Positions 3,492 to 64,000 of a stretch of 64,000 bases of DNA are shown here, one piece after another; position 1 is the first letter of the stretch; every line of letters starts with the position of its first letter. The notes beneath the pieces were generated by a model, which saw nothing but the letters and a program-made list of their open reading frames with translations, ran no database searches and was not told where the DNA came from. The translations under genes and the position numbers were made by a program. The stretch is from Chloroflexota bacterium. Its GTDB lineage: Bacteria > Chloroflexota > Dehalococcoidia > DSGV01. The stretch covers positions 1 through 64,000 of the forward strand of contig JAJYLG010000005.1 of the NCBI GenBank assembly GCA_021787985.1, read 5' to 3'.

Positions 3492-3739
3492 TCTCCCTGC
3501 GCGGCCGCCGCGCGCCGCTGCGCGATCAGCTCGTCCACCAGCGACTCGCCGGCAGGAACGTGGCGGCGGACGATCTGCCGCGCGCGCCGCAGCGCCACGC
3601 CCGGCGTGGACATGCGGATCTCGTCGTCTTCGACGAGGACCAGCACCTCCGCGCCGGATTCGAGACCGAGACGGCGGCGGAACTCCGCCGGAATCACCAG
3701 CCGACCGCCATCTCCCATCTTGATGCGCACAGCTTCCAT
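3488..3739 (-). CDS. vapB: AbrB/MazE-fold antitoxin (VapB family)
   Basis: MEAVRIKMGDGGRLVIPAEFRRRLGLESGAEVLVLVEDDEI SpoVT-AbrB pattern; GGAGG upstream of ATG at 3739; 4-nt overlap with vapC. Confidence 0.9.
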   Translation of the reverse strand: MEAVRIKMGDGGRLVIPAEFRRRLGLESGAEVLVLVEDDEIRMSTPGVALRRARQIVRRHVPAGESLVDELIAQRRAAAAQGE

Positions 3740-3781
3740 CTGGCACCTCCGTGTCCAGTCTGCCAGCATTCGGGAGATCTG

Positions 3782-3892
3782 TCATGACTGGATGTCCGTG
3801 GCAGGAGACTGCGCCAGTGCCATCCAGGCGCGGTCGCCGAGACTCAGGCTGTGTGGCGCCGCGCGCCGCGGCTCGGCGGCGAGCCCCCGCGG
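3782..3892 (-). pseudogene. VapC C-terminal remnant
   Basis: Translates as LAAEPRRAAPHSLSLGDRAWMALAQ, collinear with LAAELRRSVPYSLSLGDRACMALAQ of the intact VapC; nucleotide stretch 3809-3892 aligns by eye with 3189-3271. Confidence 0.75.
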
Positions 3893-3923
3893 ACAGATGC
3901 GACTGCCGGGAACCCGTCGCTGC

Positions 3924-4823: not shown

Positions 4824-4884
4824 GAGCCGATCGTGGCCCGGCGTACCGAGTTACACAACGGGCGCTTGCTACAATCCACAGGAG

Positions 4885-5727
4885 ATGTCCGAGACCAGCA
4901 CTACCCTGGAAGCCCGCGAGCGCGCCCTGCTCGCCTCCCTCGCCGGGATGGGCAGCGCCCTGGTCGCGTTCAGCGCCGGCGTCGATTCCACCCTTCTCGC
5001 TGCGGTTGCGCACGAGGTCCTGGGCGAACGGGCGCTCGCCGTTACCGGCATCTCACCGAGCGTCGCGGTTGAGGAGCGCGGGCAAGCGGCGGAGCTTGCC
5101 CGGGAGATCGGCGTGCGCTATCGGACGGTGGAGACACGCGAGATGGACGACCCGGGTTATGTCGCGAACAACCCGGACCGCTGCTTTCACTGCAAGGACG
5201 AGCTTCTCACGCGCCTGCGCGCCATCGCCGACGCGGAGAGGATCGCGTGGGTCGTCGATGGCTACAACGTCGATGACCTGGGCGATTACCGCCCCGGGCA
5301 GCAGGCCGCACGAATGCACGGCGTTCGCAGCCCGTTCGTCGAGGCCAGGCTGAACAAGTCCGACATCCGCGAGCTCTCCCGCCGGCGCGGTCTGCCCACC
5401 TGGGACAAGCCGGCCATGGCGTGCCTCTCCAGCCGCATCCCGTACGGCATCCACGTGACCGAGGAAGCGCTCCGACGGATCGGCGCCGCCGAGCTTCTGA
5501 TCCGGCAGCAGGGTGTGCGCACCGTGCGCGTGCGTCACCACGACACCGTCGCCCGCATCGAGACGGACCGCGCCGGCATGCGGGTCCTGTTGGAGGAGGA
5601 CGTGTCGGCGCGCGTCGTCGCCGGGCTCAAAGAGCTAGGTTACGCCTACGTCACGCTCGACCTGGCCGGCTACCGGTCCGGCAGCCTGAACGAGGTCCTG
5701 ACGCTCACCCCCGTGAGCCGCGGCTAG
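4885..5727 (+). CDS. larE: ATP-dependent sacrificial sulfur transferase LarE
   Basis: PP-loop AFSAGVDSTLLAAVA, NNPDRCFHCKDEL, WVVDGYNVDDLGDYRPG, CLSSRIPYG are LarE hallmarks; ATG 4885 preceded by GGAG. Confidence 0.93.
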   Translation: MSETSTTLEARERALLASLAGMGSALVAFSAGVDSTLLAAVAHEVLGERALAVTGISPSVAVEERGQAAELAREIGVRYRTVETREMDDPGYVANNPDRCFHCKDELLTRLRAIADAERIAWVVDGYNVDDLGDYRPGQQAARMHGVRSPFVEARLNKSDIRELSRRRGLPTWDKPAMACLSSRIPYGIHVTEEALRRIGAAELLIRQQGVRTVRVRHHDTVARIETDRAGMRVLLEEDVSARVVAGLKELGYAYVTLDLAGYRSGSLNEVLTLTPVSRG

Positions 5728-5782
5728 CGGGCGGCTCCGCCTGTGCGGCAGGGCCGGCGCTAGAATGGTCGCAGGAGACGTC

Positions 5783-6193
5783 ATGGCGGACCGCGTCCAC
5801 CGCGAGATCGAGGACCTGCTGGCCGACCTGGAGCGTCGCGGCAAGCTGCCGGCGCGCCCGCCGCGGCCGCCGTTGCGGCGTCGCCTGGTTGGCCCGTTCG
5901 CGCGCCTGGACCGCGCGGTCTCTTCGCGGTTCGAGCGGATGACGCCCGGCCGCGCGCTCGCGACGGGGGCGATCCTGGTGCTCATCGGCTACTTCTTCCG
6001 GTCGTTCCTCGGGCCCGCGCAGGGGCCGGTGGTGATCGTCGGCCTGGTCTTGTTCGTGGGTGGGTTCTTCTGGAGCTTCCGCGCACCGCGAGGACCGCGT
6101 GTCGAGCAGCGCTGGCGCGGGCGGGTGATCGACGTGCCCCAGCCGACGATCGGCCAGCGGCTACGCCGCGCATTGCGCCGAGGGCGCCGCTAG
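5783..6193 (+). CDS. Small membrane protein, unknown function
   Basis: MADRVHREIEDLLADLERRGKLPARPP...TGAILVLIGYFFRS...VVIVGLVLFVGGFFWSF: two hydrophobic segments; AGGAG upstream. Confidence 0.75.
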   Translation: MADRVHREIEDLLADLERRGKLPARPPRPPLRRRLVGPFARLDRAVSSRFERMTPGRALATGAILVLIGYFFRSFLGPAQGPVVIVGLVLFVGGFFWSFRAPRGPRVEQRWRGRVIDVPQPTIGQRLRRALRRGRR

Positions 6194-6197
6194 TCCC

Positions 6198-6830
6198 GTG
6201 CCTCGCCACGTACCCTCCGCGTTGCTCACCCTCGCGCTGGCGCTGCTCGCGCTTGCCGCGGCCGCCTGCTCACGTGGCGCCTCGCGTCAGGGCGAGGGTG
6301 GCCTCAGCCAGCTCACGGACCCGCGTGCCGTGCCCACCGCGACGTTGCCGCCGAACGGGCTGCTGCCGACGCCGATCCCGGTCGGCGCCATGCCCAGCGG
6401 CCCCAGCACCCAGTCGCCGGGCTCCTACCGGGTGCAGTCCGGCGACACGCTGGGCGCGATCGCGGCCCGGCTCGGCGTCCCGCTGACCGAGATCGTGCGC
6501 CTGAACCCGGGGATCGACCCTTCTCACATCTTCGCCGGACAGGAGATCAAAGTGCCGACCAAGGCGGACGTGCCGGCCAGCCCGACACCCACGCCCGCCT
6601 CGCGCTCCAGCACGGGGACGCCAACACCCCAGCCGACCGTGTCAGGCGGCCAGCAGACGTACAAGGTGCAGTCGGGCGACAGCGCCTGCGCGATCGCCCT
6701 CAGGTACAAGGTGAGCGTGACCGCTATCGCGCAGGCCAACAACACGACCGTGGACGCGCTACGCTCGCTCCAGGTTGGCCAGACGCTGATTATCCCGCCG
6801 TCGCAGGGCGGCCAGGGAAGCTGCCCCTAG
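6198..6830 (+). CDS. LysM-domain lipoprotein (two LysM repeats)
   Basis: Signal/lipobox ALLALAAAACS; two LysM (YRVQSGDTLGAIAARLGVPLTEIVRLNPGI; YKVQSGDSACAIALRYKVSVTAIAQANN) separated by an S/T/P linker; GTG start. Confidence 0.88.
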   Translation: MPRHVPSALLTLALALLALAAAACSRGASRQGEGGLSQLTDPRAVPTATLPPNGLLPTPIPVGAMPSGPSTQSPGSYRVQSGDTLGAIAARLGVPLTEIVRLNPGIDPSHIFAGQEIKVPTKADVPASPTPTPASRSSTGTPTPQPTVSGGQQTYKVQSGDSACAIALRYKVSVTAIAQANNTTVDALRSLQVGQTLIIPPSQGGQGSCP

Positions 6831-8470
6831 CGCGTTTGCTCCTGGGCGGCGAGCTGCGCTGCCCGCTCGCGCAACTGCTGCTTGTCGATCTTGCCCCCGG
6901 CGTTGCGCGGCAGTTCCTGAACCAGCTCGATCCGCTCCGGCAGCTTCCACTTGGCGATCTGGCGACCGAGCAGGTAGTCGCAGAGGTCGGGTAGCGTCGG
7001 TTCCGAGCCGCCGGACGCTGGCACCACGAAAGCGCAGGCGCGCTCACCGAGAACGCGGTCAGGAATCCCCACGATGGCGATGTCGCCGACCGCCGGATGC
7101 TCCATCAGCAGCCCCTCGATCTCCGCCGGGAAGATGTTCGTACCGCCGCGCAGGATCATGTCCTTGGTGCGTCCGACGATGTGCAGGTAGCCATCCCGGT
7201 CGACCTGGCCCAGGTCGCCGGACTTGAACCACCCCTTGTCCCAGGCCGCCGCGTCGTAGTCGGGCTGGTTGAGGTATCCGTAGGACTTGTTCGCCCCGCG
7301 CCAGACCACCTCCCCCGGCTCGCCTTCGGGCACCGCCGCGCCGGTGGCGTCCACGAGGGCGAGCTCCTGGCCGATGCACAGCCGACCGACGCTGGTCTGT
7401 CGCGGCTCATCGGGGTCGTCCACCCGCGTCATGACGGGCACGCCGCCGTCGGTGGCGCCGTAGATCGTCTGCACGCGACAGCCGATGCGCGCCTCGATCT
7501 CGCGGGCCACTGCCGGCGCGAGTGGCGCCCCAGCGTTGTTGAAACGGTCGAGCGCCGAAAGGTCGTAGTCCTCGATCGGCAGCGTCAGGAGCTGGACCAT
7601 CTGCGTGGGGATGGCGGTCGCGTACGTACAGCGGTTGCGGCTGAGCAGCTCCAGTGCCGCCCGCGGTTCCCAGTGCTCGAGCATCACGGAGCTGGCGCCT
7701 GCCAGCAGCGGGGCCAGGACCGCGAACGCGTAGCCTGTGGAGCCGGTGTTGGCCGGGGCGAGCGCCCCCGCCACGTCGTCGCGGCGCAGGGCGATCGCCT
7801 GGGCGAACTGCTGAAGCAGCAGCACGACCAGGTTGTTGGAACTCCACAGCGAGACCTTGGGGACGCCGGTCGTCCCCGAGGTCGTCATCGCGTGAGCCGC
7901 ATCATCGGCTGAAGGCCGGCGCGCCTCGAGACGTTCGCGGCTCGGCAGCGGAGTCCTCAGGACGAGCTCGTCAAGCTCGCCCCCTTCTCCGGAGGTGATG
8001 ACCCGGCGAAGTGCCGGTAGCTCCGCGCGCAGCCCCTCGACCATGCCGGCGAAGTCGAACGCGGCGTCGTCGCCCGGCACGATGACCAACGGCGCTTGGG
8101 CGACCTTGAGGATCGCTCCGACCTCGGCCGCTCGCCAGGTCGTGCTGAGCGGCAGGAACACCGACCCGATGCGGTTGGCCGCCAGGTGGATGACGGGAAG
8201 TAGCGAGCAGCTCGGCACCTGCGCGGCCACCACGTCGCCCGGGCGAACCCCGAGGTCGGGCAGCGCCGCCGCCAGCCGCAGCGAGTAGTCGCGGAGCTCG
8301 CCGTATGTCCATCTCCGGTGGCCATCAAGAACCGCCGGCTTGTCCGGACCGGACTCCGCCTGGCGGTCGAAGATCTCGGCCACGGTTGCGTCTCCCCACA
8401 GACCCAACTCCCGGAAACGACGGGCGTCGGCGCCATCGTGCCAGCGACGGACCACGGGTTTCTCCGACAT
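6827..8470 (-). CDS. AMP-dependent synthetase/ligase (class I adenylate-forming)
   Basis: MTTSGTTGVPKVS, YGATDGGVP, GWFKSGDLGQVDRDGYLHIVGRTKDMILRGGTNIFPAEIE, GGKIDKQQLRE. Confidence 0.93.
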   Translation of the reverse strand: MSEKPVVRRWHDGADARRFRELGLWGDATVAEIFDRQAESGPDKPAVLDGHRRWTYGELRDYSLRLAAALPDLGVRPGDVVAAQVPSCSLLPVIHLAANRIGSVFLPLSTTWRAAEVGAILKVAQAPLVIVPGDDAAFDFAGMVEGLRAELPALRRVITSGEGGELDELVLRTPLPSRERLEARRPSADDAAHAMTTSGTTGVPKVSLWSSNNLVVLLLQQFAQAIALRRDDVAGALAPANTGSTGYAFAVLAPLLAGASSVMLEHWEPRAALELLSRNRCTYATAIPTQMVQLLTLPIEDYDLSALDRFNNAGAPLAPAVAREIEARIGCRVQTIYGATDGGVPVMTRVDDPDEPRQTSVGRLCIGQELALVDATGAAVPEGEPGEVVWRGANKSYGYLNQPDYDAAAWDKGWFKSGDLGQVDRDGYLHIVGRTKDMILRGGTNIFPAEIEGLLMEHPAVGDIAIVGIPDRVLGERACAFVVPASGGSEPTLPDLCDYLLGRQIAKWKLPERIELVQELPRNAGGKIDKQQLRERAAQLAAQEQTR

Positions 8471-8506
8471 GCTTCTTCTCCCCGACTGACTGCCTCTCGA
8501 CACGGG

Positions 8507-8512
8507 AGTATA
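8507..8512 (-). promoter_or_regulatory. Putative -10 box (TATACT) for the 6827..8470 ligase gene
   Basis: Minus-strand TATACT about 37 nt upstream of the ATG at 8470; no convincing -35 at 17 nt spacing. Confidence 0.4.
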
Positions 8513-8720
8513 CGCGCGGACGCGGGACAGGGACCAACTGCAACTGGTACCGAAGCTCGCTTGTTCTTCGCGCTGACGGACCGCGGTCCACCCTGGACGG
8601 GCGGCACTCCGAAGCCGCCTCGCCGAAGCGTGGGGCCATGTGGGTTCCGCCCGCGGCGGACTTGGGTTGTGGAACGTTGTGGCGTTTGCGCCTGCCACGA
8701 CCAGCATGCTACCTTTTGGC

Positions 8721-8744
8721 CGCGTGCAGGATGCCATGCACGCG
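8721..8744. repeat. Perfect 8-bp inverted repeat (CGCGTGCA / TGCACGCG, 8-nt loop)
   Basis: cgcgtgca-ggatgcca-tgcacgcg read directly from sequence. Confidence 0.8.
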
Positions 8745-8760
8745 TGCAGGGTACCCTGGG

Positions 8761-8797
8761 GACCCGGCCCGGACCCGACGGGTCCGCGCGCCGGGTC
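8761..8797. repeat. Two-tier stem-loop upstream of carboxyltransferase gene
   Basis: GACCCGGC-C-CGGACCC-GAC-GGGTCCG-CGC-GCCGGGTC: 8-bp outer and 7-bp inner perfect stems, 1x3 internal loop. Confidence 0.8.
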
Positions 8798-8867
8798 TGT
8801 TGTGACCGCTCCGCGGGCGGCGCGAGTGAAAGGAGAGCCTGGCACGGCCAGGGCAGGATATGCGCGG

Positions 8868-10418
8868 ATGAGCATGGAAGATAGAGTTGAAGAGCTCCGC
8901 GCTACGCGCGAGCGCGCGCTGCTGGGTGGCGGGCTCGAGCGCATCGAGGCACAGCACAAGCGCGGCAAGCTTACGGCGCGTGAACGGATCGCGGTCCTCT
9001 GCGACCCGGGCACGTTTGACGAGATCGACAGCTTCGTAGTTCACCAATGCACCGACTTCGGCCTCGCTGAGCAGAAGATCCCCGGCGACGCGGTGGTGAC
9101 CGGCTCGGGCAAGATCGACGGCCGGCTCGTCTTCGTCTTCTCGCAGGATTTCACCGTCTTCGGCGGCAGCCTCTCGGAGGCGGTCGGCCAGAAGATCAGC
9201 AAGCTCCAGGACCTGGCGCTGAAGGTCGGCGCACCCATCATCGGCCTGAACGACGGCGGCGGCGCCCGCATCCAGGAAGGCGTAGCTGCGCTGCGCGGTT
9301 ACGGCGAGATCTTCAGGCGCAACACCCTGGCCAGCGGCGTCATCCCGCAGATCTCGGTGATCATGGGGCCCGCGGCCGGTGGCGCCGTGTACTCGCCGGC
9401 CATCACCGATTTCGTGTTCATGGTCGAGGGCAGCGGCCAGATGTACATCACCGGCCCGGACGTCATCCGCGCCGTCACCGGCGAAGAAGTGACGCACGAG
9501 CAGCTCGGTGGCGCGATCACCCATGCCACGCGCTCCGGCGTCGCGCACTTCGCCATCGCGGGCGAGGAGGCCTGCCTGCAGGAGGTCCGCCGACTGATCT
9601 CCTTCCTGCCTTCCAACAACATGGAAGACCCACCACACGCCGAGACGGGTGACGACCCGGCGCGCGGTGTCGAGGAGATGCTCTCGCTGGTGCCCGACGA
9701 CCCGAATCGGCCGTACGACGTCCGCGAGGTCATCGAACGCATCGTGGACAACGGTGACTTCCTCGAGGTGCACGCCGGCTGGGCGCAGAACGTCGTCGTC
9801 GGCTTCGGCCGCCTGGCGGGGCGGACGGCGGGCGTCATCGGCAACAACCCGCAGCACCTGGCGGGGGTGCTCGACATCGATGCCTCCCGCAAGGCCGCCC
9901 GCTTCGTACGCTTCTGCGACGCGTTCAACATCCCGCTCGTGACCCTGGTGGACGTCCCGGGCTTCCTGCCGGGCACCTCGCAGGAACACGGCGGGATCAT
10001 CACTCACGGCGCCAAGCTCATCTACGCGTACGCCGAGGCGACCGTCCCCAAGATCTCCGTGACGCTGCGCAAGGCCTACGGCGGCGCCCACATCGTGATG
10101 AGCAGCCAGTACCTTCGCGGCGACATCAACTACGCCTGGCCCACCGGCGAGATCGCCGTCATGGGCGCGGACGGCGCCGTCAACATCATCCACCGTGCGC
10201 AGATCGCGGCTGCCCGCGACCCCGAGGCGGAGCGCAAGCGGCTCATCGAGGAGTATCGCGAACGGTTCAGCAACCCCTACGTGGCCGCCGCACGCGGCTT
10301 CATCGAAGATGTGATCGATCCGCGCGAGACCCGCATTCGCGTCGTCCGCGCGCTCGACATGCTAAGGAACAAGGCCGATACGAATCCGCCGAAGAAACAC
10401 GGCAACATCCCGCTCTGA
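8868..10418 (+). CDS. Acyl-CoA carboxylase beta / methylmalonyl-CoA carboxyltransferase 12S-type subunit
   Basis: Carboxyltransferase family signatures (GGGARIQEGV, GPAAGGAVYSPAITDFVFMVEGSGQMYITGPDVIRAVTGE, VDVPGFLPGTSQEHGGIITHGAKLIYAYAEATVPKISVTLRKAYGGAHIVMSS). Confidence 0.93.
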   Translation: MSMEDRVEELRATRERALLGGGLERIEAQHKRGKLTARERIAVLCDPGTFDEIDSFVVHQCTDFGLAEQKIPGDAVVTGSGKIDGRLVFVFSQDFTVFGGSLSEAVGQKISKLQDLALKVGAPIIGLNDGGGARIQEGVAALRGYGEIFRRNTLASGVIPQISVIMGPAAGGAVYSPAITDFVFMVEGSGQMYITGPDVIRAVTGEEVTHEQLGGAITHATRSGVAHFAIAGEEACLQEVRRLISFLPSNNMEDPPHAETGDDPARGVEEMLSLVPDDPNRPYDVREVIERIVDNGDFLEVHAGWAQNVVVGFGRLAGRTAGVIGNNPQHLAGVLDIDASRKAARFVRFCDAFNIPLVTLVDVPGFLPGTSQEHGGIITHGAKLIYAYAEATVPKISVTLRKAYGGAHIVMSSQYLRGDINYAWPTGEIAVMGADGAVNIIHRAQIAAARDPEAERKRLIEEYRERFSNPYVAAARGFIEDVIDPRETRIRVVRALDMLRNKADTNPPKKHGNIPL

Positions 10419-10441
10419 CGCGGGAGCGAAGGAGTACGACA

Positions 10442-10912
10442 ATGCGCGTTCCAGGCGTCCGGTGGTGGCTGGTTTCGATGCTTGCGCTGCTTGTCGCGGT
10501 GGGCGCGCTCGCGGCGGCCTGCGGAGGCAGCAAGGGCGGCAGTGACGAGGCGAAGATCCGCAGTCGGCTCGACACGTTCGTGAACCACTTCAACAAAGGC
10601 GACGCCAACGGGATCATCAGCGACATCGCGCCGGACCAGCGGAAGGGATGCGACCCGAAGCAGATCGAGGCGGCCTTCGCCATGATCAAGGGCTTCACCG
10701 GGGGGCAGGCGAAGATCACGCTCAAGGACGTAAAGATCAAGTCGATCAGCGGCAACACCGCTGACGTTGACGTCACTTCGGTGCTGGAGGGCGTCGGCAG
10801 CGCCCCGGCCACCCCCGAGACCAGCTCGGGGAAGATGAGCAAGTCGGGGGGCAACTGGTACATCGACACCGAGGGACAGGGATGCCAAGGGTTGAACATG
10901 TCGGGAAGCTAG
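10442..10912 (+). CDS. Lipoprotein, paralogue 1 of tandem pair, unknown function
   Basis: Lipobox ALAAACGG; body KIRSRLDTFVNHFNKGDANGIISDIAPDQRKGCDPKQIEAAFAMI...NTADVDVTSVLEGV...GNWYIDTEGQGC. Confidence 0.8.
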   Translation: MRVPGVRWWLVSMLALLVAVGALAAACGGSKGGSDEAKIRSRLDTFVNHFNKGDANGIISDIAPDQRKGCDPKQIEAAFAMIKGFTGGQAKITLKDVKIKSISGNTADVDVTSVLEGVGSAPATPETSSGKMSKSGGNWYIDTEGQGCQGLNMSGS

Positions 10913-10966
10913 CCGCGGCGGCGCGCCGACGTTGAAGCCCGGGCCGGGTCCAGGATAGGAGGACGC

Positions 10967-11473
10967 ATGCGAATGGTTCGAAGTCGACCCCGCGCGGTTG
11001 GCATCATCGGCCTCGTGGCGGTCGTCGCCTTCGTCGTCGCCGCCTGTGCCACCGGCGGCCCGGACCAGTCCGCGATTCGAGCTCGTGTCGACTCGATCGT
11101 CCAGAACTTCAACAGCGGCAACCCGCAGGGTCTGCTCAGCGACCTCGTTCCCGCTGACCGCGCCGGGTGCGACCCCGCGAAGATCGCCGCGGCCTTCTCC
11201 GACGTCGCCAAGCGCTCCAGCGACAAGGCGCGCCTGGCGGTCACCGAGATCAAGGTTCAGTCGGTTGAGAACGGCAAGGCGGACGTGGAGATCACGTCGG
11301 TCCTACAGGGCGTGCCCGGCGGCGACACGTCCCCGAACACGGCCGCGGCCACGTTCAAGAAGGTCGACGGCCAATGGTACCTGAGCCTTGGTGGTCCCGG
11401 CTGCGCCGGCTTCGGAACTCCCACGCCGACGCCTACGGCCACGCCAGCCGCCACGGCGACCAGCTCATCCTGA
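10967..11473 (+). CDS. Lipoprotein, paralogue 2 of tandem pair, unknown function
   Basis: Lipobox VVAACATG; body AIRARVDSIVQNFNSGNPQGLLSDLVPADRAGCDPAKIAAAFSDV...GKADVEITSVLQGV...DGQWYLSLGGPGC, aligned with the preceding ORF. Confidence 0.8.
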   Translation: MRMVRSRPRAVGIIGLVAVVAFVVAACATGGPDQSAIRARVDSIVQNFNSGNPQGLLSDLVPADRAGCDPAKIAAAFSDVAKRSSDKARLAVTEIKVQSVENGKADVEITSVLQGVPGGDTSPNTAAATFKKVDGQWYLSLGGPGCAGFGTPTPTPTATPAATATSSS

Positions 11474-11555
11474 CACGCGCCCGCGATCCTCGGTGGGCCC
11501 TCCGGCCCGTGCCGGTGTCCCGCCGGGGCGACTGCTGAGAGGACAACGGACAACA

Positions 11556-13028
11556 ATGGGCGTCAAGATCACCGACACGGTGCTGCGTGACGCGCACCAG
11601 TCGCTGCTGGCCACCCGCATGCGCACCGAGGACATGCTGCCCGCGCTGGAGCAGCTCGATGCGATCGGTTACCACTCGCTCGAGATCTGGGGCGGCGCCA
11701 CGTTCGATACCGCGCTGCGCTTTCTCAAGGAGGACCCCTGGGAGCGGCTGCGGCTCCTCAAGCAGGGCCTCAAGCGAACGCCCACCCAGATGCTGCTCCG
11801 CGGCCAGAACGCCGTCGGCTACCGCCACTACGCGGACGACGTCGTCACGCGCTTCGTCTGGAAGGCGCGCGAGAACGGCATGGACATCTTCCGCATCTTC
11901 GACGCCCTCAACGACCCGCGGAATTTCGAGACGGCCATGCGCGCCTGCAAGGATGCCGGCGGGCACGCGCAGGGCACCATCTGCTTCACCATCAGCCCGG
12001 TCTTCACGCCGGATACCGCGGTTGAGACCGCACGCGCCCTGATCGACATGGGCGCCGACTCGATCTGCCTCAAGGACATGGCCGGCCTGATGGACCCGAT
12101 GTCGGCTTTCGAGATCGTGGGGCGGCTGCGGCAGGAGGTGAACGTGCCGATCGCCGTCCACACCCACTGCACCAGCGGCATGGCCGAGATGGCCTGCCTG
12201 AAAGCGATCGAGGCCGGCGCCGACATCATCGACTGCGCCGTCTCGTCCATGGCCCAGGCGACCTCGCAGCCTCCCACCGAGACGATGGTCGCCGTCCTCC
12301 GCGACACCCGCTGGGACACCGGGCTCGACGTCGCCAAGATCAATGCCGTGGCCGACTACTTCACGGGCGTCCGCCAGAAGTACGCCGCCTTCGAGAGCCA
12401 CACCTTCGGCGTCGATTCGGGCGTGCTCATCCACCAGATGCCGGGCGGCATGATCTCCAACATGGTGAACCAGCTCCGCGAGCAGAACGCGCTGCAACGG
12501 CTGCCCGACGTGCTGGAGGAGATGCCACACGTGCGCGAGGACATGGGCTACCCGCCGCTGGTCACGCCCACCAGCCAGCTCGTGGGCACGCAAGCGGTCA
12601 TGAACGTGCTGATGGGCGAACGCTACAAGCTCGTCTCGCGCGAGGTGCGCCAGTACTTCCTCGGCTACTACGGCCTCACACCGGCTCCCGTGAGCAAGGA
12701 GGTGCAGGAGAAGGTCGTGGGCGACCTCTCCCAGGTGATCAAGGACCGCCCAGCCGACAACCTCCCGCCAGAGCTCGATCAGGCACAGCAGGAGATCGGC
12801 GAGCTCGCCTGCTGCGAGGAGGACGTCATCTCCTACGCGCTCTTCCCGCAGCCGGCGCGCGAGTTCTTCGACCTGCGCGCCAAGGGTGGGCCGCCCGAGC
12901 CGGCCGTGGTCGCGGCGATCGTGGCGGCCGCGCAGGCGGCAGAGCCACCGCCTCCGCCACCGCTATCGGCTCCGAGTGACGGCAAGAACGCCTGGCGCCT
13001 CGCGGGCCGCCAGCGGCTGATGCGATAG
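11556..13028 (+). CDS. Oxaloacetate decarboxylase alpha / pyruvate carboxylase B / transcarboxylase 5S-type subunit (no C-terminal biotinyl domain)
   Basis: ITDTVLRDAHQSLLATRMRTEDMLPALEQLD...SLEIWGGATFDTALRFLKEDPWERL, VHTHCTSGMAEMACLKAIEAGADIIDCAVSSMA, QMPGGMISNMVNQL. Confidence 0.93.
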   Translation: MGVKITDTVLRDAHQSLLATRMRTEDMLPALEQLDAIGYHSLEIWGGATFDTALRFLKEDPWERLRLLKQGLKRTPTQMLLRGQNAVGYRHYADDVVTRFVWKARENGMDIFRIFDALNDPRNFETAMRACKDAGGHAQGTICFTISPVFTPDTAVETARALIDMGADSICLKDMAGLMDPMSAFEIVGRLRQEVNVPIAVHTHCTSGMAEMACLKAIEAGADIIDCAVSSMAQATSQPPTETMVAVLRDTRWDTGLDVAKINAVADYFTGVRQKYAAFESHTFGVDSGVLIHQMPGGMISNMVNQLREQNALQRLPDVLEEMPHVREDMGYPPLVTPTSQLVGTQAVMNVLMGERYKLVSREVRQYFLGYYGLTPAPVSKEVQEKVVGDLSQVIKDRPADNLPPELDQAQQEIGELACCEEDVISYALFPQPAREFFDLRAKGGPPEPAVVAAIVAAAQAAEPPPPPPLSAPSDGKNAWRLAGRQRLMR

Positions 13029-21210: not shown

Positions 21211-21798
21211 TCAGCCGGCGGTGGGAGCCGCCTTGCGTGGATGCGCCGCGGGGAAGAGGGCATCCCAGGCCACGCGGCGATAGTGGACGAACCCGAGGAC
21301 CGTCAGCACGGCCAGGACTCCCGCGAGCGTGAACGAGACGATGGCGGCGACCTGAGCCACCTCACCGATCGTCCAGAACGCGTACGCGTTGAGGAGCATG
21401 CCGCGCAGCGTGGTGCCCCTGAACATCGTTTCGACCTGCGCCTTGAGCTGCGCGTCATCGGGCTTGGCCCGGGACGCGGCGCTCGCCTCGGAGTAGGTCG
21501 TGGCACCCTTGCTTTCTTGCAGATGCACGAGGATGTAGTGGTCGGCGAATGCCTTGGCCTGGGGGCCAGTGAGCACTTGCTGCCCAGCGTACTTGCTGAT
21601 GTACGGCCCGATCTTGGGGTCGGCCAACTGGGGGCTGCCGGCGGCCGGGAAGGAGATCTTCTGCTCGCCGAGCTGTTGGCGCACCTGGCTGGTGGTGACG
21701 TTGTGGGCCCACAGGCCCAGAATACCGGCGGCGACGAGAACGACCATCAACATCACCCCGGCAGCGGACAACAGCAGGTCAAACGTCTTGCGGGACAT
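21211..21798 (-). CDS. Membrane protein of unknown function
   Basis: N-terminal TM (LLLSAAGVMLMVVLVAAGILGLW) and C-terminal TMs (FWTIGEVAQVAAIVSFTLAGVLAVLTVLGFV). Confidence 0.75.
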   Translation of the reverse strand: MSRKTFDLLLSAAGVMLMVVLVAAGILGLWAHNVTTSQVRQQLGEQKISFPAAGSPQLADPKIGPYISKYAGQQVLTGPQAKAFADHYILVHLQESKGATTYSEASAASRAKPDDAQLKAQVETMFRGTTLRGMLLNAYAFWTIGEVAQVAAIVSFTLAGVLAVLTVLGFVHYRRVAWDALFPAAHPRKAAPTAG

Positions 21799-22118
21799 GT
21801 CTTCGGGTACCTCCCTCGACTAGTGGATCTTCCCTACAGGACCAGGGTTGCGCGAGCGGCCGCGGTCGTCAGTCGGGCAATTCGTGACATATTTCACAAC
21901 CTCTGTGGGGCATCATCGGACAGTATTCCCCAGATACGTGGGGCCCTGCCCGACACGCCCTGCGGACCTCCCGTCGTGCGTGCGCGCGGCGCCCCGCTGG
22001 CGTGCGCGCCGGGGACACCGGCGGCTTCAGGCGCGGGGCCGAGGCGAACGGGCGATCCCGATTTGATCCTCGATCGGAGGGGCCGGCAGTCCGGGTGGCG
22101 TGCGCCTGGCACAGTGCG

Positions 22119-57825: not shown

Positions 57826-58071
57826 TCATTCGCCCCCTGTCTGCCGGTAGAAGCGGACCCGCCAGTCGCCGTCGGCGGTGCGGACGGTCTCGTGGGCGAA
57901 GCCGAGGCCGGCGAGCGCCGCGTAGAGCGGCACTGGCTCGAAAACGTTCACCACGACGAGCTCCTGGTCCGGCCGGAGACCCTGTAGCGCGGCCATGATC
58001 CGGCTGAATGGCTCACGGCCGGCGCGGATGTCCTCGCGGACGTCCACGGTCACCACGGTCATCTCGCTCAT
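57826..58071 (-). CDS. DUF2249 domain protein (paralogue 2)
   Basis: VTVDVREDIRAGREPFSRIMAALQGLRPDQELVVVNVFEPVPLYAALAGLGFAHETV...DWRVRFYR. Confidence 0.85.
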   Translation of the reverse strand: MSEMTVVTVDVREDIRAGREPFSRIMAALQGLRPDQELVVVNVFEPVPLYAALAGLGFAHETVRTADGDWRVRFYRQTGGE

Positions 58072-58301
58072 CGCGCCAGCCGGGTGATCCTGATGACCCA
58101 ACGCTCCGGGCCAGTCTCCTGTGGCTGCCATCCGACCTCGCCTGGGTGCTCGGCCATGAACTGGTAGTAGAGCGGCTTCGGGTCGTGGTCGTTCACGAGG
58201 AAGAACGACTCACCGGCCGCCAGGGCATCGTATGTACCGAAGATGAGCGGGTGACGCTGCGGCGGCGCCAGGCTGCGCACATCGATCACTTTCTCTGCCA
58301 T
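58068..58301 (-). CDS. DUF2249 domain protein (paralogue 1)
   Basis: VIDVRSLAPPQRHPLIFGTYDALAAGESFFLVNDHDPKPLYYQFMAEHPGEVGWQPQETGPERWVIRITR. Confidence 0.92.
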   Translation of the reverse strand: MAEKVIDVRSLAPPQRHPLIFGTYDALAAGESFFLVNDHDPKPLYYQFMAEHPGEVGWQPQETGPERWVIRITRLAR

Positions 58302-58303
58302 CG

Positions 58304-58540
58304 TCAGCCAGCCTCCGGCTCGTCGGTCTCCAGGCCGGCGGCGCGCAGCTCCTCGAGGATCTGCGCCACGCCAAGCCCGTGAGCCGTCAGTGCCATCCCG
58401 AGCGGGTGAGTCCCGCCGCAGCAGGTGTCGAGTCCGTGGCGGCCAAGCACGGGAAGCGCTGCGGGCCAACGCGCAGCCACGTCCCGCACCGGCATTGCCA
58501 GCAATGCTCCGACGCGGACGCGTGTCGTAGGCACGGTCAT
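58304..58540 (-). CDS. ScdA-N/DUF542-type small protein
   Basis: PVRDVAARWPAALPVLGRHGLDTCCGGTHPLGMALTAHGLGVAQILEELRAA; diagnostic LDTCCGG. Confidence 0.88.
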   Translation of the reverse strand: MTVPTTRVRVGALLAMPVRDVAARWPAALPVLGRHGLDTCCGGTHPLGMALTAHGLGVAQILEELRAAGLETDEPEAG

Positions 58541-58672
58541 CGTTTCACCTTCCGAGGGTTCTCCAGGTCGCCGGCTTCTCCGCCCCGCGGGCTCGTCGCG
58601 CTCAACGTCTGGGCCGGTGGCCCGGGCGTCCCCCATTGCATCGCCGGCCGCGGCCGCTGGCGATGACTTCCG

Positions 58673-59638
58673 TCACCCGCCGTCAGCCAGCGCCCGCAGG
58701 CGCTCGGCGTCCGCTACGACCACGCGACCCCGATCCAGCCGCACGAGCCCCTCGCGCTCCATGCCATGCAGCGAGCGCGCCACCACCTCCCGCGCGGTGC
58801 CCGCCAGGTCGGCGATATCTCGCTGGCTGAGCGCACGGATCTCTTCGACGCCCGCGCCGACGCCGGGCGCAGGGGCGGTCGCTTGCAACAGCACCTTGGC
58901 GATGCGCGCCGTGACCTGGCGGAACGACAGGTCCTCGACCAGCGCCACCATGTGCCGCAGCCGATTGGCCAGCATCCGCACCATGCCGCGCGCGAACCTC
59001 GGGCTGTTGATGAGCAGCGCATCGAGCGCGTCCTGCGGCACCAGCAGCAAGACCGCCGGCTCGACCGCCTCGACCGAGGCAGGGTTCGGCCCGCCGTCGA
59101 ACGCCGGGACCTCGTTCAGGCTCTCGCCCGCCCCCATCACGCGCAGGACCTGCTGGCGGCCGCTCGCCGCCGTGGTGAAGACGCGCACATGTCCCGACTG
59201 CACCACGAATAGGCCGGGAGACGACTGGCCCTCGGTGATCACCATGTCGCCCGCCGCGTGGCGCTGCTGGCGCAGCGACGGCACGAGCTGTGCCAGCTCG
59301 TCGGCGCCGAGCTGCGCGAAGTACGGCACCTTGCGCAGCGCCGGCGGGAGGCTGGCCGGCATGTCACTTCGGCTCGACGCGCTGGCCACGCGGTCGAGCT
59401 GCTGCGCCAGCTCATGCCAGCGGTTCCGGTTGACACGGCAGCGACCCGCCCCATCGCGGGTGACGAGGTCGGCGCGGACCAGGCCCTGCACGTCCTCGTC
59501 CAGGTCGGTGGGATCGACTCCCGCCAGCGAGGCGAGCGCGTCCACCGTGTCGGCGCCCCGCGCAACGCACATCGCCAGCAGCAGCCGCGCCTGATCGAGC
59601 GCGGCGAACGGATCGGCGGTGGTCTCGTCCAGCGTCAT
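58673..59638 (-). CDS. Crp/Fnr family transcriptional regulator with extra N-terminal winged-helix-like domain
   Basis: cNMP-binding fold (LRQQRHAAGDMVITEGQSSPGLFVVQSGHVRVFTTAASGRQQVLRVMGAGESLNEVPAFDGG); C-terminal HTH_Crp (ALSQRDIADLAGTAREVVARSLHGMEREGLVRLDRGRVVV); about 85 extra N-terminal residues. Confidence 0.92.
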   Translation of the reverse strand: MTLDETTADPFAALDQARLLLAMCVARGADTVDALASLAGVDPTDLDEDVQGLVRADLVTRDGAGRCRVNRNRWHELAQQLDRVASASSRSDMPASLPPALRKVPYFAQLGADELAQLVPSLRQQRHAAGDMVITEGQSSPGLFVVQSGHVRVFTTAASGRQQVLRVMGAGESLNEVPAFDGGPNPASVEAVEPAVLLLVPQDALDALLINSPRFARGMVRMLANRLRHMVALVEDLSFRQVTARIAKVLLQATAPAPGVGAGVEEIRALSQRDIADLAGTAREVVARSLHGMEREGLVRLDRGRVVVADAERLRALADGG

Positions 59639-59714
59639 GGCCCTTGCCCCCTGCGACAGAGGTTACTGCGGTCGTGGGACGTGCGATGCGTTGATGGGAC
59701 ATGGAGGACACACG

Positions 59715-61835
59715 ATGACATCCGCGGGCCGGGCTCCCATTTCCGCCAACGACAGCGTACGCGACGTCGTCCGGCGGTACCCAGGCATCGAATCGGTATT
59801 CGACCGCTTCGGGCTGGCAGGTTGCGGTGGGCCAAGCGGGCCGCTGGAACCGGTCGGCTTCTTCGCAGCAGTGCACCACGTGGACGTCGCGCGGCTCCTC
59901 GGCGAGCTGGCCGCCTACGCCGACGCCAGGGATCACCCGGTCCAGGCGCCACGACCGCAGGACCGCACCTATCGGTGGTTCACTTCCGTCTCGCTCGCGT
60001 TCTCGCTCTTTGCCGGCCTCATCATCGGCATCGTGGCCATCCTGGACAACGCCGCGGGCGGGTCGCTCGGCGGCCGCTGGGTGTCGTGGGTGCAGGCGCA
60101 CGGCCAGGCCCAGCTCGTTGGTTTCGTCGAGCTGTTCATCCTCGGGATCGGGTTCCACGTCATGCCTCGCTTCAAAGCGCAGGAGCCGCTGCCCGCGCGG
60201 CCGCGGCTCGCCGTCGGCGCGCTGCTCGCGGCCGGGGTGGCGGCACGGCTCGTCGCGCCGCTCCTGCCCTCGCCCATCGCGGCAGCATTCGTCGGGGTGG
60301 GCGCCCTCGCGATCGCGGGCGGGGGCGTCGCTGCCGGCGTCGCGTTCGGCTATCACCTCTGGCGTGCGCGCGACCGCCGCGAGTTCTACGACCCGATCAT
60401 CGGCGCCGCGGCCGCCTGGTTCGTCATCAGCGGCGTGATCTCGGCCGTGGGGGGCCTGCGCGCCTGGGCGAACGGAGCGCCTGCCGTGCGTCCCGATTGG
60501 GATGAGGCGCTGGTGATCTCGCAGCTCCTGGGCGTTGCGATGACGATGGCCTGGGGTGTCACCGCCCGGACGGTCCCCTTCTTCCTGAACCTACGGCAAC
60601 CGCACGAACGGACGGTGCTCGGCTCGGCGGCGCTGGAGCAGTTGGCGGTCGCGGCGCTGGTGGCCGCGCCACTTGTCGGCGGTGGCACGGCTCAGGCGCT
60701 GCGGATGACCGGCGCGGCCGCCCTGGCCGTCGCCGTGGCCGGCTTCGTGTTCGGCGTGCGACTGGCCGAGCCCGAGGAGAAGCGCGCCGACGCCGACCGC
60801 GCGCGCGAGCACACGCGCTTCGTGAAGCTGGCGTACATCTGGCTCGCCGTCGCGGCGCTGCTGCAGCTCGCCTGGTTCATCGTCGAACGCGGCGGGATCG
60901 TTCCCATGTGGCCGGCCGGCGCGATCCGGCACGCCTTCGCGGTCGGCTTCATCACCACGCTGATCATCGGGATGTCCTACCGGACCGTCCCGGTCTTCTC
61001 GGGGCACGAGCTGCGCCATCTCGGTCTCGTGCGGGCATCGTTCTGGCTCCTGTTCGCCGCCGCCGCGTTGCGCGTCCTGCCGGTCGGGGTCACGGACGCG
61101 CCGCCGGCCTTCGCGCGGGTCCTGGTCGGCGTGGCGGGGATCTCCCTCTGGGCCGCGCTGGCGGCGTTCGCCATCGTGCTGGCGGCGCTCCGCCGGTCGG
61201 TCGATGCCTCGCAGGCAGCGCAGGCCGCGCCCGAGGCCGCGCCCACGACGCAAGAGCCACCCGGCGCGCACGAGCCCGCGGACCTGCGCGCTTGGGCCGC
61301 GCCGGAGCGGACCGTGGAGGAGACGCTCGAGCGTTTCCCGACGAGCCTGGCCCGCTTCCTGGACCTCGGCTTCGCCACCTTGGCCGAACCGGCGATGCGC
61401 CGAGCCATGGCGCCATGCACGACGCTGGCGCAGGCCGCCGCCATTCGGGGACTGGGCTACGAGCAGCTCCTCGATCAGCTCGCGCCCACGCCCGCCGCCA
61501 CGGCTGGCGACGAAGACGACGGCTCTGTGAGCGTGGAGCTGGTCCGCATCGCGCTCAAGTCCGTGCACGACCCGGAGATCCCGGTCAACGTGGTCGACCT
61601 CGGTCTGATCTACGGCATCCGCGTCGAGCGCGGGAAGGTGGCCGTGCGCATGACGCTGACCTCCCCCTTCTGTCCGGTGGCCGACCAGGTGGTGCGAGAC
61701 GCGGAGGAGGCAGTGTACCAGGTGCCCGGGGTTGCCTCGGTGGACATCGAAGTAGTTTACGATCCGCCCTGGGACCCTGAGCGCATGACCGACGACGGCA
61801 AGCGACAGCTCGGTTGGGCCTCCGCGCCCGCATGA
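59715..61835 (+). CDS. Multidomain NnrS protein: ScdA-N-like / NnrS / DUF1858-like / MIP18 (DUF59) fusion
   Basis: N-term SVRDVVRRYPGIESVFDRFGLAGCGG; NnrS core (WVQAHGQAQLVGFVELFILGIGFHVMPRF, FITTLIIGMSYRTVPVFSGHEL); RTVEETLERFPTSLARFLDLGF; C-term VRIALKSVHDPEIPVNVVDLGLIYGIRVERGKVAVRMTLTSPFCPVADQVVRDAEEAVYQVPGVASVDIEVVYDPPWDPERMTDDGKRQLGW. Confidence 0.9.
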   Translation: MTSAGRAPISANDSVRDVVRRYPGIESVFDRFGLAGCGGPSGPLEPVGFFAAVHHVDVARLLGELAAYADARDHPVQAPRPQDRTYRWFTSVSLAFSLFAGLIIGIVAILDNAAGGSLGGRWVSWVQAHGQAQLVGFVELFILGIGFHVMPRFKAQEPLPARPRLAVGALLAAGVAARLVAPLLPSPIAAAFVGVGALAIAGGGVAAGVAFGYHLWRARDRREFYDPIIGAAAAWFVISGVISAVGGLRAWANGAPAVRPDWDEALVISQLLGVAMTMAWGVTARTVPFFLNLRQPHERTVLGSAALEQLAVAALVAAPLVGGGTAQALRMTGAAALAVAVAGFVFGVRLAEPEEKRADADRAREHTRFVKLAYIWLAVAALLQLAWFIVERGGIVPMWPAGAIRHAFAVGFITTLIIGMSYRTVPVFSGHELRHLGLVRASFWLLFAAAALRVLPVGVTDAPPAFARVLVGVAGISLWAALAAFAIVLAALRRSVDASQAAQAAPEAAPTTQEPPGAHEPADLRAWAAPERTVEETLERFPTSLARFLDLGFATLAEPAMRRAMAPCTTLAQAAAIRGLGYEQLLDQLAPTPAATAGDEDDGSVSVELVRIALKSVHDPEIPVNVVDLGLIYGIRVERGKVAVRMTLTSPFCPVADQVVRDAEEAVYQVPGVASVDIEVVYDPPWDPERMTDDGKRQLGWASAPA

Positions 61836-63268
61836 CGCCGCCCCCCGGCGCGCGAAACGACGAGCCGGTCATCCTGGCCACCGCACGCGGCGGCGAGGTC
61901 GTGCCGGCCGTCGAGGACCGCTCGTACCTGGCGTACGTTGCCGCGGCGCTGGCGGTCGCGCTGTTGGGTGGCTTCGTCCTCGCGGTGCTGGTGCCGCTCA
62001 CGGCGATCGGGACGCTCCCATGGGCGGAGCGCCTGCCCGAGCTGATCCAGGCCCACGGCTGGGCCCAGCTCCAGGGCTGGGCCGGCATCTTCGTGGCCGG
62101 CATGGGCCTGCGCCTCATCCCGCGCTTCGCCGGCCGCCACCCCATCCCGGTCACGATCACACTGCCGGTCCTCGCCCTGCTGCTCGCGGGAGTGGTCTTG
62201 CGCACCCTGCTGCAGCCGGCCGCCGGCCGCGCGCTCGCCGACGTCGGGCTGCTGGCCGGCGTCACGTGTTCCGCGGTTGCGATGCTGAGCTTCGCCGGCA
62301 CGCTTGGGTACACGCTGCACCGCGGGCGCAAGCGGCCCGAGCCGTGGCGCTACTTCGCCTGGGCGGGTGCGGTCTGGTGGGCGGCCTGGGCCGTCCTGGT
62401 GCTTGCCGCGGGAGTCCGCGCGACGGCCAACGACGGACTCGTGCCGGGCATGCTCGACGAGGCGTCGACCTGGGTGGTCTTCTTCGGCGCCATCGCCAAC
62501 TTCATCTGGGCGATCCAGAGCCGCAGCGTGCCGGTATTCTTCGGGCGTCGGCCGCCCACCCTGCGGCGCGTGCTCGCCCCTGGCGCCCTGCTCAACGCGG
62601 GCGTGCTTCTGGTACTGCTCTCCATCCTGCCGTGGTCCGACGCGGCGGCGACCCGTCTCGAGGGTCTCGGACTGACCCTGGCAGGATTGGCCACCGCCTG
62701 GCTCGCACCACTGGCCGGGTCGATCTCCGGCCGAGCACACCGGCTGCGGCCACGGGCCCGCGCTGCCTCGCGGTTCGTCCTGGCGGCAGACTGGTGGGCC
62801 ATGGTGGCCGGCGCGCTCGCCATGTGGGCCGGGATCGCATCGCTCGCCAGCGGCCGGTTCGAGCTGTTCGGCGTGCGCGACGCGGCCCGTCACGCGCTCG
62901 GGATCGGCCTGATCTCCATGCTCATCGTGGGCATGGCGCAGCTCGTCGCTCCGGTGTTCGCGCTGGAACGCGCGGAGGCACGGCCGCCCGGCGTCGAATA
63001 CGTGGTCGGCTGGCCGGCGCTCTTCCTGGCGGCCGGCATGCGAGTTGCCGCCGGAGTGCTGTTCGGGCATATGGGCGAACGTGCGCGGATGGAGCTGATC
63101 GCCGCCGCCGGGGTGCTCGGCTGGATCGGCATCGCGGCCTTCGCCTGGAGCGTGGTCCGCGCGCGTCAGGGAGCCGCGCATGAAGGCGCTCCTCACGGAG
63201 GAAGCCGCGTTGGCGGCGAAGCGCAACCGCCGCCGGCCAGATTGAGCCGGGCCGCTATGCCAGGTTGA
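61832..63268 (+). CDS. Second NnrS-like multipass membrane protein
   Basis: LPELIQAHGWAQLQGWAGIFVAGMGLRLIPRFAGRHP; NFIWAIQSRSVPVFFGRRPP; GIGLISMLIVGMAQLVAPVFALERAEA; ATGA overlap with preceding gene. Confidence 0.85.
   Translation: MTPPPGARNDEPVILATARGGEVVPAVEDRSYLAYVAAALAVALLGGFVLAVLVPLTAIGTLPWAERLPELIQAHGWAQLQGWAGIFVAGMGLRLIPRFAGRHPIPVTITLPVLALLLAGVVLRTLLQPAAGRALADVGLLAGVTCSAVAMLSFAGTLGYTLHRGRKRPEPWRYFAWAGAVWWAAWAVLVLAAGVRATANDGLVPGMLDEASTWVVFFGAIANFIWAIQSRSVPVFFGRRPPTLRRVLAPGALLNAGVLLVLLSILPWSDAAATRLEGLGLTLAGLATAWLAPLAGSISGRAHRLRPRARAASRFVLAADWWAMVAGALAMWAGIASLASGRFELFGVRDAARHALGIGLISMLIVGMAQLVAPVFALERAEARPPGVEYVVGWPALFLAAGMRVAAGVLFGHMGERARMELIAAAGVLGWIGIAAFAWSVVRARQGAAHEGAPHGGSRVGGEAQPPPARLSRAAMPG
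63180..63245 (+). CDS. Candidate 21-aa small ORF overlapping the end of the second NnrS gene
   Basis: MKALLTEEAALAAKRNRRRPD*, AGGGAG upstream, +1 frame relative to NnrS2. Confidence 0.25.
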   Translation: MKALLTEEAALAAKRNRRRPD

Positions 63269-64000
63269 CGAGGATTTCGCCGTCCTCGACTTTCGCCTCG
63301 TAGGCGCGGATGTCGGAGCACGAGCGCTTGGCCATCAACCAGGAGAGCAGCCGGCCGTTGAAGAAGTGCTTGCGGTTGAACTCCGGCGCGAACGGCCCGC
63401 GCACGCAGCGACCCGTGTGGACGTCGTACTGGGCACCGTGCGCAGAGCAGGTGAGCTTGTCCCCGGCCTCGACCCAGCCGCGCGCCAGGTTCCACTTCAT
63501 GTGCGAGCAGATCGCGTCGACCACTCGGACCTCACCGCCCAGGTTGAGCGCTACGATCGGCTTGCCGTCCACGTCGAAGCGCCGGAGCGCTCCGGGTGGC
63601 AGGTCCTCCAGTCGGGCCACGCGGCGGAAGGCGGTGGCGACGCCGAGCAGCGGGACGACCGTCCGGCGGTGGCGAGCCCGCTCTTCGCGCTGCTCGTGGA
63701 GACGGCGGACGATCGCGGTCTTCTCTCTCTGGTAGAGCCCGCGGGCGCGGGTCTGCGTGCGGATCAGCTCGTCGAGCTTGCGCTGAACGCCGCCGAAGAA
63801 AGGCGCGACGGTTTCGAAATCCCAGATCGAGGGGTCATCGATGGCGTCCGGGAAGTAGGCGCGCGCCAGTCGCTCGAACAGCACGCTCGGGAACGGGGCG
63901 GGCTCGCCGCCGACCTCCCGGTTCTCCTTGTTCTCGAGCCAGTAGTCTTCGAGCTGGACGGCCGCCGGGTAAAGGCGCAGGCCCAGGTAGTACAGCTCAT
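63255..64000 (-). CDS. Rieske [2Fe-2S] domain protein, N-terminus outside window
   Basis: Rieske motif CSHMKWNLARGWVEAGDKLTCSAHGAQYDVHTGRCVRGPF; frame open to window edge (ELYYLGLRLYPAAVQLEDYWLENKENREVGGEPAPFPSVLFERLARAYF...). Confidence 0.88.
   Translation of the reverse strand, partial: ELYYLGLRLYPAAVQLEDYWLENKENREVGGEPAPFPSVLFERLARAYFPDAIDDPSIWDFETVAPFFGGVQRKLDELIRTQTRARGLYQREKTAIVRRLHEQREERARHRRTVVPLLGVATAFRRVARLEDLPPGALRRFDVDGKPIVALNLGGEVRVVDAICSHMKWNLARGWVEAGDKLTCSAHGAQYDVHTGRCVRGPFAPEFNRKHFFNGRLLSWLMAKRSCSDIRAYEAKVEDGEILVNLA

Follow-up and report, generated by a model that had tools for sequence, protein, structure and literature searches.

A four-domain NnrS fusion and a divergent Crp/Fnr-family regulator in a conserved gene set with a probable role in protecting iron-containing proteins from nitric oxide

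Introduction

How NnrS shields bacteria from nitric oxide (NO) without removing it is an open question. A locus that bears on it lies at positions 57826-64000 of a 64,000-nucleotide stretch from a Chloroflexota bacterium (class Dehalococcoidia; contig JAJYLG010000005.1, assembly GCA_021787985.1), the whole of which is referred to here as the window. In this locus, a gene for a Crp/Fnr-family regulator is divergent from two NnrS-type genes, the first of which encodes a fusion of four domains, and is followed on its own strand by genes for a ScdA_N protein and two DUF2249 proteins. Comparative sequence analyses and predicted structures suggest that this compact, evolutionarily conserved gene set probably protects iron-containing proteins from NO. 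With a probability of about 0.6, we read it as an accessory module of nitrosative stress or nitrate respiration with its own Crp/HcpR-type regulator, which would protect or repair Fe-S proteins and would not itself act as an NO reductase.

Several families of the locus have a published background, among them DUF2249, which we take to be COG4309. Genes of COG4309 travel with nor genes (PMC1274295), and DUF2249 genes go up under denitrification in Haloferax (PMC11218638). The Thermus proteins DrpA and DrpB, corresponding to DUF2249 and to DUF1858 plus two DUF2249 domains, are under a CRP-like regulator and act on nar expression and nitrate respiration (PMC6282519). In Bradyrhizobium, nnrR is divergent from nnrS, and a DUF1858 gene is NnrR-dependent (PMC6710368), while NnrS of Vibrio cholerae protects iron from dinitrosyl-iron complexes without removing NO (PMC9246220). 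Fusions of DUF59 and DUF1858 have already been reported (PMC4982691). Each family of the locus is known; in the literature searched, which left out most subscription journals, we found no description of the four-domain membrane fusion, nor of an oxidase-fold reading of NnrS with low-spin haem ligands alone, nor of the cross-phylum operator presented below.

Results

Organization of the locus

Family profiles over positions 57826-64000 resolved two divergent arms, with the Crp/Fnr, ScdA_N and the two DUF2249 genes, in this order, on the minus strand, and the two NnrS-type genes on the plus strand:

57826-58071, minus: DUF2249 protein a, final gene of the Crp-side operon (Pfam PF10006, 3.5e-19)
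58068-58301, minus: DUF2249 protein b, MAEKVIDVRSLAPPQRHP...NDHDPKPLYYQF (PF10006, 1.1e-30)
58304-58540, minus: single-domain ScdA_N/DUF542 protein (PF04405, 1.4e-10)
58662-58677: weaker candidate regulator site GATGACTTCCGTCACC, between the crp gene and the ScdA_N/DUF2249 genes (motif matrix)
58673-59638, minus: Crp/Fnr-family regulator, 321 aa (Pfam, alignments, model)
59652-59667: candidate site for the regulator, TGCGACAGAGGTTACT, within the 76-bp gap between the two arms (motif matrix, Markov shuffles)
59715-61835, plus: 706-aa four-domain fusion, ScdA_N/DUF1858 - NnrS - DUF1858 - MIP18 (family profiles, alignments, model)
59736-59924, plus: fusion domain 1, ScdA_N/DUF1858-type (TIGR03980 prismane_assoc, 5.5e-7; alignment)
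59967-61226, plus: fusion domain 2, NnrS membrane domain with 12 transmembrane helices (Pfam, alignment, model)
61290-61502, plus: fusion domain 3, DUF1858 (PF08984, 1.7e-17)
61524-61832, plus: fusion domain 4, MIP18/DUF59 (PF01883, 1.2e-21, 77 bits)
61832-63268, plus: second, stand-alone NnrS-type membrane protein, 478 aa (own-genome match 6.4e-30; hhalign)
63255-64000, minus: Rieske 2Fe-2S protein, convergent, continuing to ~64191 (Pfam Rieske, 1.5e-15)

This layout agrees with a first-pass annotation made from the sequence alone, which had placed a Crp/Fnr gene divergent from two NnrS-like genes and followed by ScdA-N and two overlapping DUF2249 genes, with a Rieske gene converging on the NnrS unit; all the families that it named were found. 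Two of its assignments needed revision: both NnrS genes are indeed NnrS-type, but the first is a four-domain fusion rather than a plain NnrS, and the MIP18/DUF59 family is present as the C-terminal domain of this fusion instead of a separate gene. The genome (3.5 Mb, 95.6% complete) is a draft in 189 contigs, with the window lying on a contig of 93,269 bp. It contains four DUF2249 copies, and the chance of finding one within 5 kb of the fusion is ~1%; together with its recurrence in many genomes, described below, this places the linkage of the module beyond chance. No Rieske protein was among the matches listed for the related fusion loci, membership of the Rieske protein in the module is unsupported, and we count it as a neighbour only.

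The four-domain fusion and its NnrS domain

The fusion likely starts at the ATG at 59715, immediately preceded by GGAGGA. Its NnrS domain reaches 66.2 bits (4.5e-18) in Pfam PF05940, above the gathering cut-off of 28. Domain 1 carries GCGG, with C37-G38-G39, E45 and H54 invariant, and domain 3 has the CGG position without its cysteine. Domain 4 resembles the SufT/MIP18/CIA2 (DUF59) proteins in keeping the DPEIPVN motif and cysteine C653 (in 6/6 four-domain fusions), and its predicted fold matches 3cq2 (TM score normalised to target, TMt, 0.90); it differs from them in its attachment to a membrane haem protein. The alternation of positive charges is that of a protein with both termini inside; by this positive-inside count, the ScdA_N/DUF1858 and MIP18 domains are assigned to the cytoplasmic side.

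A model of the NnrS domain built on 48 homologues (predicted local distance difference test, pLDDT, 88.9) displays 12 membrane helices, and among membrane proteins of known structure it matches best to haem-copper oxidase subunits I, namely CcoN of cbb3 oxidase (TMt 0.72) and NorB (3o0r, 0.70). The NnrS domain is therefore predicted to have the haem-copper oxidase subunit I fold, with which the sequence evidence agrees weakly but independently: the domain profile matches CcoN at 3e-4 and a CcoN-like protein of genome G006 at 4.6e-6, and it aligns NnrS helix II with helix II of Sinorhizobium meliloti NorB. Two membrane histidines, H129 (helix II) and H406 (helix X), are invariant in 48/48 sequences, and no others are; further invariant residues include R152, R285, R405 and R453. 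By fold and sequence alignment, H129 and H406 would occupy the positions of the low-spin haem ligands in oxidase helices II and X. Position 404, two before H406, is where oxidases have the high-spin haem ligand; the residues listed there are Y, A, I, V, T and L, with no His among them, and no conserved His was found in transmembrane helices VI or VII (the place of the CuB/FeB ligands) in the 48-sequence alignment. Hence, while the NnrS domain shares the 12-helix fold and both low-spin ligands with CcoN and NorB, it lacks the high-spin and CuB/FeB ligands, and the fusion is not classed as an oxidase or NO reductase. In the same way, the haem-copper character suggested in the first-pass annotation stood for the predicted haem ligands, which are conserved, but not for a binuclear centre, as the CuB-type histidines are absent.

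The second gene starts at the ATG at 61832 and is translationally coupled to the fusion gene by an ATGA overlap. It scores 18.3 bits in Pfam NnrS, under the cut-off of 28, and is a clear NnrS homologue by profile comparison (hhalign 100%, 4.8e-66), for which reason we call it only NnrS-type; its family keeps both invariant histidines (the equivalents of H129 and H406). Both ligand-position histidines are also found in the NnrS-like protein of S. meliloti (HAHEMLFG, MHVLTVG; profile search of pSymA), and a tblastn search for NnrS similarity on plasmids gave no match. The fusion can thus be compared with the NnrS proteins of Rhodobacter sphaeroides, V. cholerae and rhizobia, above whose family cut-off it scores; it is however very divergent and carries the ScdA_N/DUF1858, DUF1858 and MIP18 domains, and the accompanying second copy falls below that cut-off.

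Soluble proteins of the Crp side

The ScdA_N protein keeps DTCCGG intact and matches the N-terminal part of the RIC family (TIGR03652) at 8.8e-8; its likely start is at 58540, and the start at 58636 given in the first-pass annotation is less likely. The DUF2249a protein begins with MSEMTVV, its gene overlapping the preceding DUF2249b gene by ATGA, and has an orthologue at the equivalent position in one related locus (L077) and, in fused form, in another (L084). DUF2249b has counterparts at the equivalent position in L077, L078 and L084, and the version in L148 is fused to a hemerythrin. Sequence searches of DUF2249b and the ScdA_N protein against solved structures gave nothing useful. No hemerythrin-type di-iron domain is encoded in the locus; hemerythrin proteins are present elsewhere in the genome.

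With the RIC/YtfE/ScdA/DnrN proteins the module shares ScdA_N domains with CCGG or GCGG, and RIC genes lie near many of the three-domain relatives of the fusion; in contrast to them, it has no hemerythrin di-iron domain in the locus and spreads its domains over the fusion, the single-domain ScdA_N protein and the DUF2249 proteins. The Thermus DrpA/DrpB system likewise combines DUF2249 and DUF1858 proteins, nitrate respiration and a CRP-like regulator, but its operon as described has neither NnrS nor MIP18, and the role proposed there is nitrate sensing.

The regulator and its predicted operator

The Crp protein contains a cyclic nucleotide monophosphate (cNMP)-binding-like domain (Pfam, 5e-20) and a helix-turn-helix (HTH_Crp_2, 1.1e-14), preceded by ~95 extra N-terminal residues that are modelled as a winged helix and absent from 19/19 aligned relatives. 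With this extra element, two domains of DNA-binding type are present in one chain. In the model (pLDDT 83.2), the closest folds are a Thermus CRP-family protein (4ev0, TMt 0.72) and HcpR (9day, TMt 0.71), and identities of 42-47% were found to its own clade only. The four Fe-S cysteines of FNR type are absent from its sequence, and in an alignment by eye the segment GESLNEVPAFDGGPNPAS has P/A at the places of the cyclic AMP-binding R82/S83 of Escherichia coli. In the recognition helix (TAREVVAR), the R and E used in CRP-type recognition are present and fit the G3/A6 recognition-residue rule described with the HcpR CRP-like sites wTGTGAnnnnnnTCACAw (PMC1274295), so that the protein has the residues for CRP/HcpR-type recognition of a TGTGA-type palindrome. 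It is comparable to HcpR of Desulfovibrio and to DNR/NnrR in being divergently encoded with NO-associated targets, and to HcpR in site, recognition residues and fold; it differs in its extra winged helix and in the lack of an hcp gene in the genome.

The palindrome TGTGACnnnnGTCACA fits this recognition helix and turns up again ahead of module genes in different phyla. Using a site matrix built from other genomes only, the candidate site TGCGACAGAGGTTACT in the divergent gap is the second-best match in the 64-kb window, and its score was reached by 3 of 2000 Markov shuffles of the 76-bp gap. Its distance to the fusion start is 48 bp, compared with 47 and 49 bp in L077 and L084. The weaker site at 58662-58677 ranks 12th in the window, at a position homologous to L077:1183, L078:6220 and L084:5133. 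In held-out loci, the best match fell in a module-gene promoter in 13/22 cases for Chloroflexota (2.0 expected; the effective n is below 22 because the related loci L078/L077, L148/L149 and L154/L158 were counted) and in 12/33 for other phyla (1.6 expected). FNR (TTGAT) and DNR-type sites were also considered for the divergent gap, where none occurs at up to 3 mismatches.

One other intergenic match in the genome is the perfect palindrome TGTGACCGGCGTCACA, ~600 bp upstream of an operon of the dimethyl sulfoxide (DMSO)-reductase family on contig C75, which is suggestive because a molybdenum (Mo) operon adjoins the fusion in relatives. The C75 region (3519-11557) comprises two radical SAM genes of haem-biosynthesis type, followed by genes for DMSO-reductase-family alpha, Fe-S and membrane subunits and a chaperone-like gene, with TGTGACCGGCGTCACA between the radical SAM pair and the DMSO-reductase-family group. 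A second type II DMSO-reductase-like alpha subunit is encoded on contig C129 (2161-3942), cut by the contig end. The top matrix match of the entire window is CGTGACATATTTCACA at 21883-21898; this site lies in the gap upstream of a minus-strand gene (21211-21798) and immediately downstream of succinate-dehydrogenase-like genes.

Conservation and genomic context

The genomes searched included no other member of this genome's family, so relatives were sought in the class and outside it; a scan covering 85,488 species genomes yielded 54 loci, on which gene calling and profile matching were carried out. A fusion of the same four domains is present in five other genomes (L077, L078, L084, L121 and L145, of Chloroflexota type), three of which (L077, L078 and L084) also display the divergent Crp gene followed by DUF2249, as in the window, at ~40% identity. 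Each of the five fusions has a type II DMSO-reductase/nitrate-reductase operon within 7 kb; in L121 this operon has NarJ and NarI above cut-offs and the alpha subunit as a fragment, and the other four have a type II DMSO-reductase alpha subunit. In four loci (L082, L092, L098 and L114) the fusion has three domains and MIP18 is encoded as a separate gene directly downstream of it, three of the four having a fused ScdA_N-DUF2249 gene and three a Crp gene. Most of the remaining loci (Acidobacteriota, Planctomycetota and more) contain the three-domain form. In other phyla the three-domain versions adjoin quinol NO reductase (qNOR), RIC/YtfE and Mo reductases: among the fusion loci searched, qNOR is near 8 (identified by the Pfam NorB cytochrome c-like domain and ~42% identity to annotated NO reductases) and a RIC/YtfE-like gene near 12. 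Two apparent neighbours were rejected, namely a 677-aa protein in Bryobacterales loci taken for a nitrous-oxide reductase, which family search identified as pyruvate dehydrogenase E1, and the 'NorB/NorC' of L107 and L044 taken for an NO reductase, which are a CcoN-like protein and a cytochrome c.

In the studied genome itself, no haem-copper NO reductase (NorB) was recognisable, no NirK scored above cut-off, NirS gave just a 115-residue partial match of 25.9 bits, and there was no match to the Prismane family of Hcp. No denitrification genes were seen on the stretch of contig read beyond the Rieske gene (~64191), and the nir/nor search did not include nosZ, Hmp or flavorubredoxin.

Among the class members, short proteins of ~90-142 aa corresponding to about one third of oxidase subunit I, one with HVHLNLVGF, were observed in L056, L057, L075, L153-L159 and L160; they recur beside DUF1858, ScdA_N, Crp, ferredoxin or cupin genes, and several of their genes have the same palindrome upstream. 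Separately, a cbb3-like oxidase operon on contig C135 (L010:14848-16770) encodes a 640-aa protein of repeated four-helix transmembrane units, each resembling the C-terminal region of COX1 (four Pfam COX1 stretches) and bearing HxH...NxxG-type motifs.

Discussion

Our results are consistent with an accessory module of nitrosative stress or nitrate respiration, close to what the first-pass annotation had suggested. The linkage of NnrS, DUF2249, DUF542 and Crp genes, for which it had recommended a neighbourhood search, is conserved in related genomes, and its view that these are families of NO-type regulons agrees with fusion genes lying beside qNOR, RIC/YtfE or nitrate-reductase-type genes across phyla. 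The NO reductase that it did not see in the window is, for the haem-copper type, missing from the entire genome, and reading past position 64000 for nor/nir/nos, another of its proposals, brought no such gene on the stretch of contig covered. The notion of a self-contained module is not supported, given that a Mo nitrate-reductase-like operon adjoins the fusion in 5/5 relatives and lies here on another contig with a candidate site; the haem-copper label was amended as described.

As to mechanism, the Crp regulator would respond to NO or nitrogen oxides and activate the two arms from the site that they share. The fusion may bind a single bis-histidine haem (H129/H406) in the membrane, would be unable to reduce NO by the oxidase mechanism, and could serve as a conduit for electrons or NO equivalents linking the membrane with the cytoplasmic cysteine (CGG) and MIP18 domains, a transfer that would limit dinitrosyl-iron formation and restore Fe-S clusters. 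As soluble partners, the small ScdA_N and DUF2249 proteins would do as separate parts what RIC/YtfE, with ScdA_N plus hemerythrin, does in one. A bolder version, which we put forward tentatively and at less than even odds, is that NnrS branched off from the haem-copper oxidases, without catalytic activity and with low-spin haem only, and that the fusion repairs Fe-S proteins from its anchor in the membrane: electrons of the membrane would travel via the haem to the cytoplasmic ScdA_N/MIP18 domains, dismantling dinitrosyl-iron complexes and rebuilding clusters, under a Crp regulon that spans phyla and uses the site TGTGACnnnnGTCACA.

Some observations weigh against an NO-protection module under a shared operator. 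In the locus L145, neither a Crp nor a DUF2249 gene is linked within 16 kb, and no good match to the motif is seen in L145 or L098. Across the genome the exact pattern shows no enrichment, with 13 matches compared to 11 for a reversed control; since the control gives about as many, we dropped the genome-wide count as evidence. Of 295 genomes of the class, 12 contain the full-length fusion, 3 NorB and one both, and hence the fusion does not track NO reductase in the class. In addition, canonical NnrS has been called haem-copper-containing (PMC1274295), and no copper site was identified in this NnrS domain.

The main rival, which we judge unlikely but still a serious contender, is that the module serves maturation or quality control of a Mo/Fe-S respiratory reductase (nitrate, DMSO type II) co-expressed under low oxygen or nitrate, its Fe-S domains acting in assembly of the enzyme and not in NO defence. 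The operon near all five four-domain relatives, the perfect palindrome TGTGACCGGCGTCACA upstream of the C75 Mo-enzyme operon and the action of Thermus DrpA/DrpB on nar expression (PMC6282519) speak for it; nevertheless, most three-domain relatives have no Mo enzyme nearby and many adjoin qNOR or RIC, the C75 site lies ~600 bp from the Mo gene, and the module holds no Mo-chaperone family. A redox- or oxygen-responsive membrane haem module without specificity for nitrogen oxides, in which the NnrS-type haem protein would be an electron carrier or a sensor feeding the Crp circuit, would suit a low-spin bis-His haem alone and the terminal oxidases adjoining some relatives (L148, L149, and L107 with its CcoN-like protein), but the recurrent linkage to qNOR and RIC and the experimental NO links of these families make it improbable.

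The two remaining explanations have very little in their favour. The oxidase fold (TM 0.72/0.70) could suggest that the NnrS domain is itself a haem-copper oxidase relative with cryptic activity as an NO or O2 reductase; this is highly improbable considering that position 404 is never His among the residues listed, that helices VI and VII have no conserved His, and that NnrS of V. cholerae fails to remove NO (PMC9246220). That unrelated genes are adjacent by chance is scarcely credible: the seemingly unrelated Rieske gene and the draft state of the genome, in 189 contigs, would allow it, but the matching layout in three genomes at ~40% identity, the fusion events and the conserved site spacing contradict it.

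Returning to the protective module that we favour, it bears on how NnrS shields bacteria from NO without removing it, and the answer proposed is an oxidase-fold protein reduced to an electron-carrying haem and fused, in several genomes, to Fe-S repair or assembly domains. The predicted operator links NnrS, DUF2249, DUF1858/ScdA_N and MIP18 genes across phyla, and would thereby join several domains of unknown function into one regulon.

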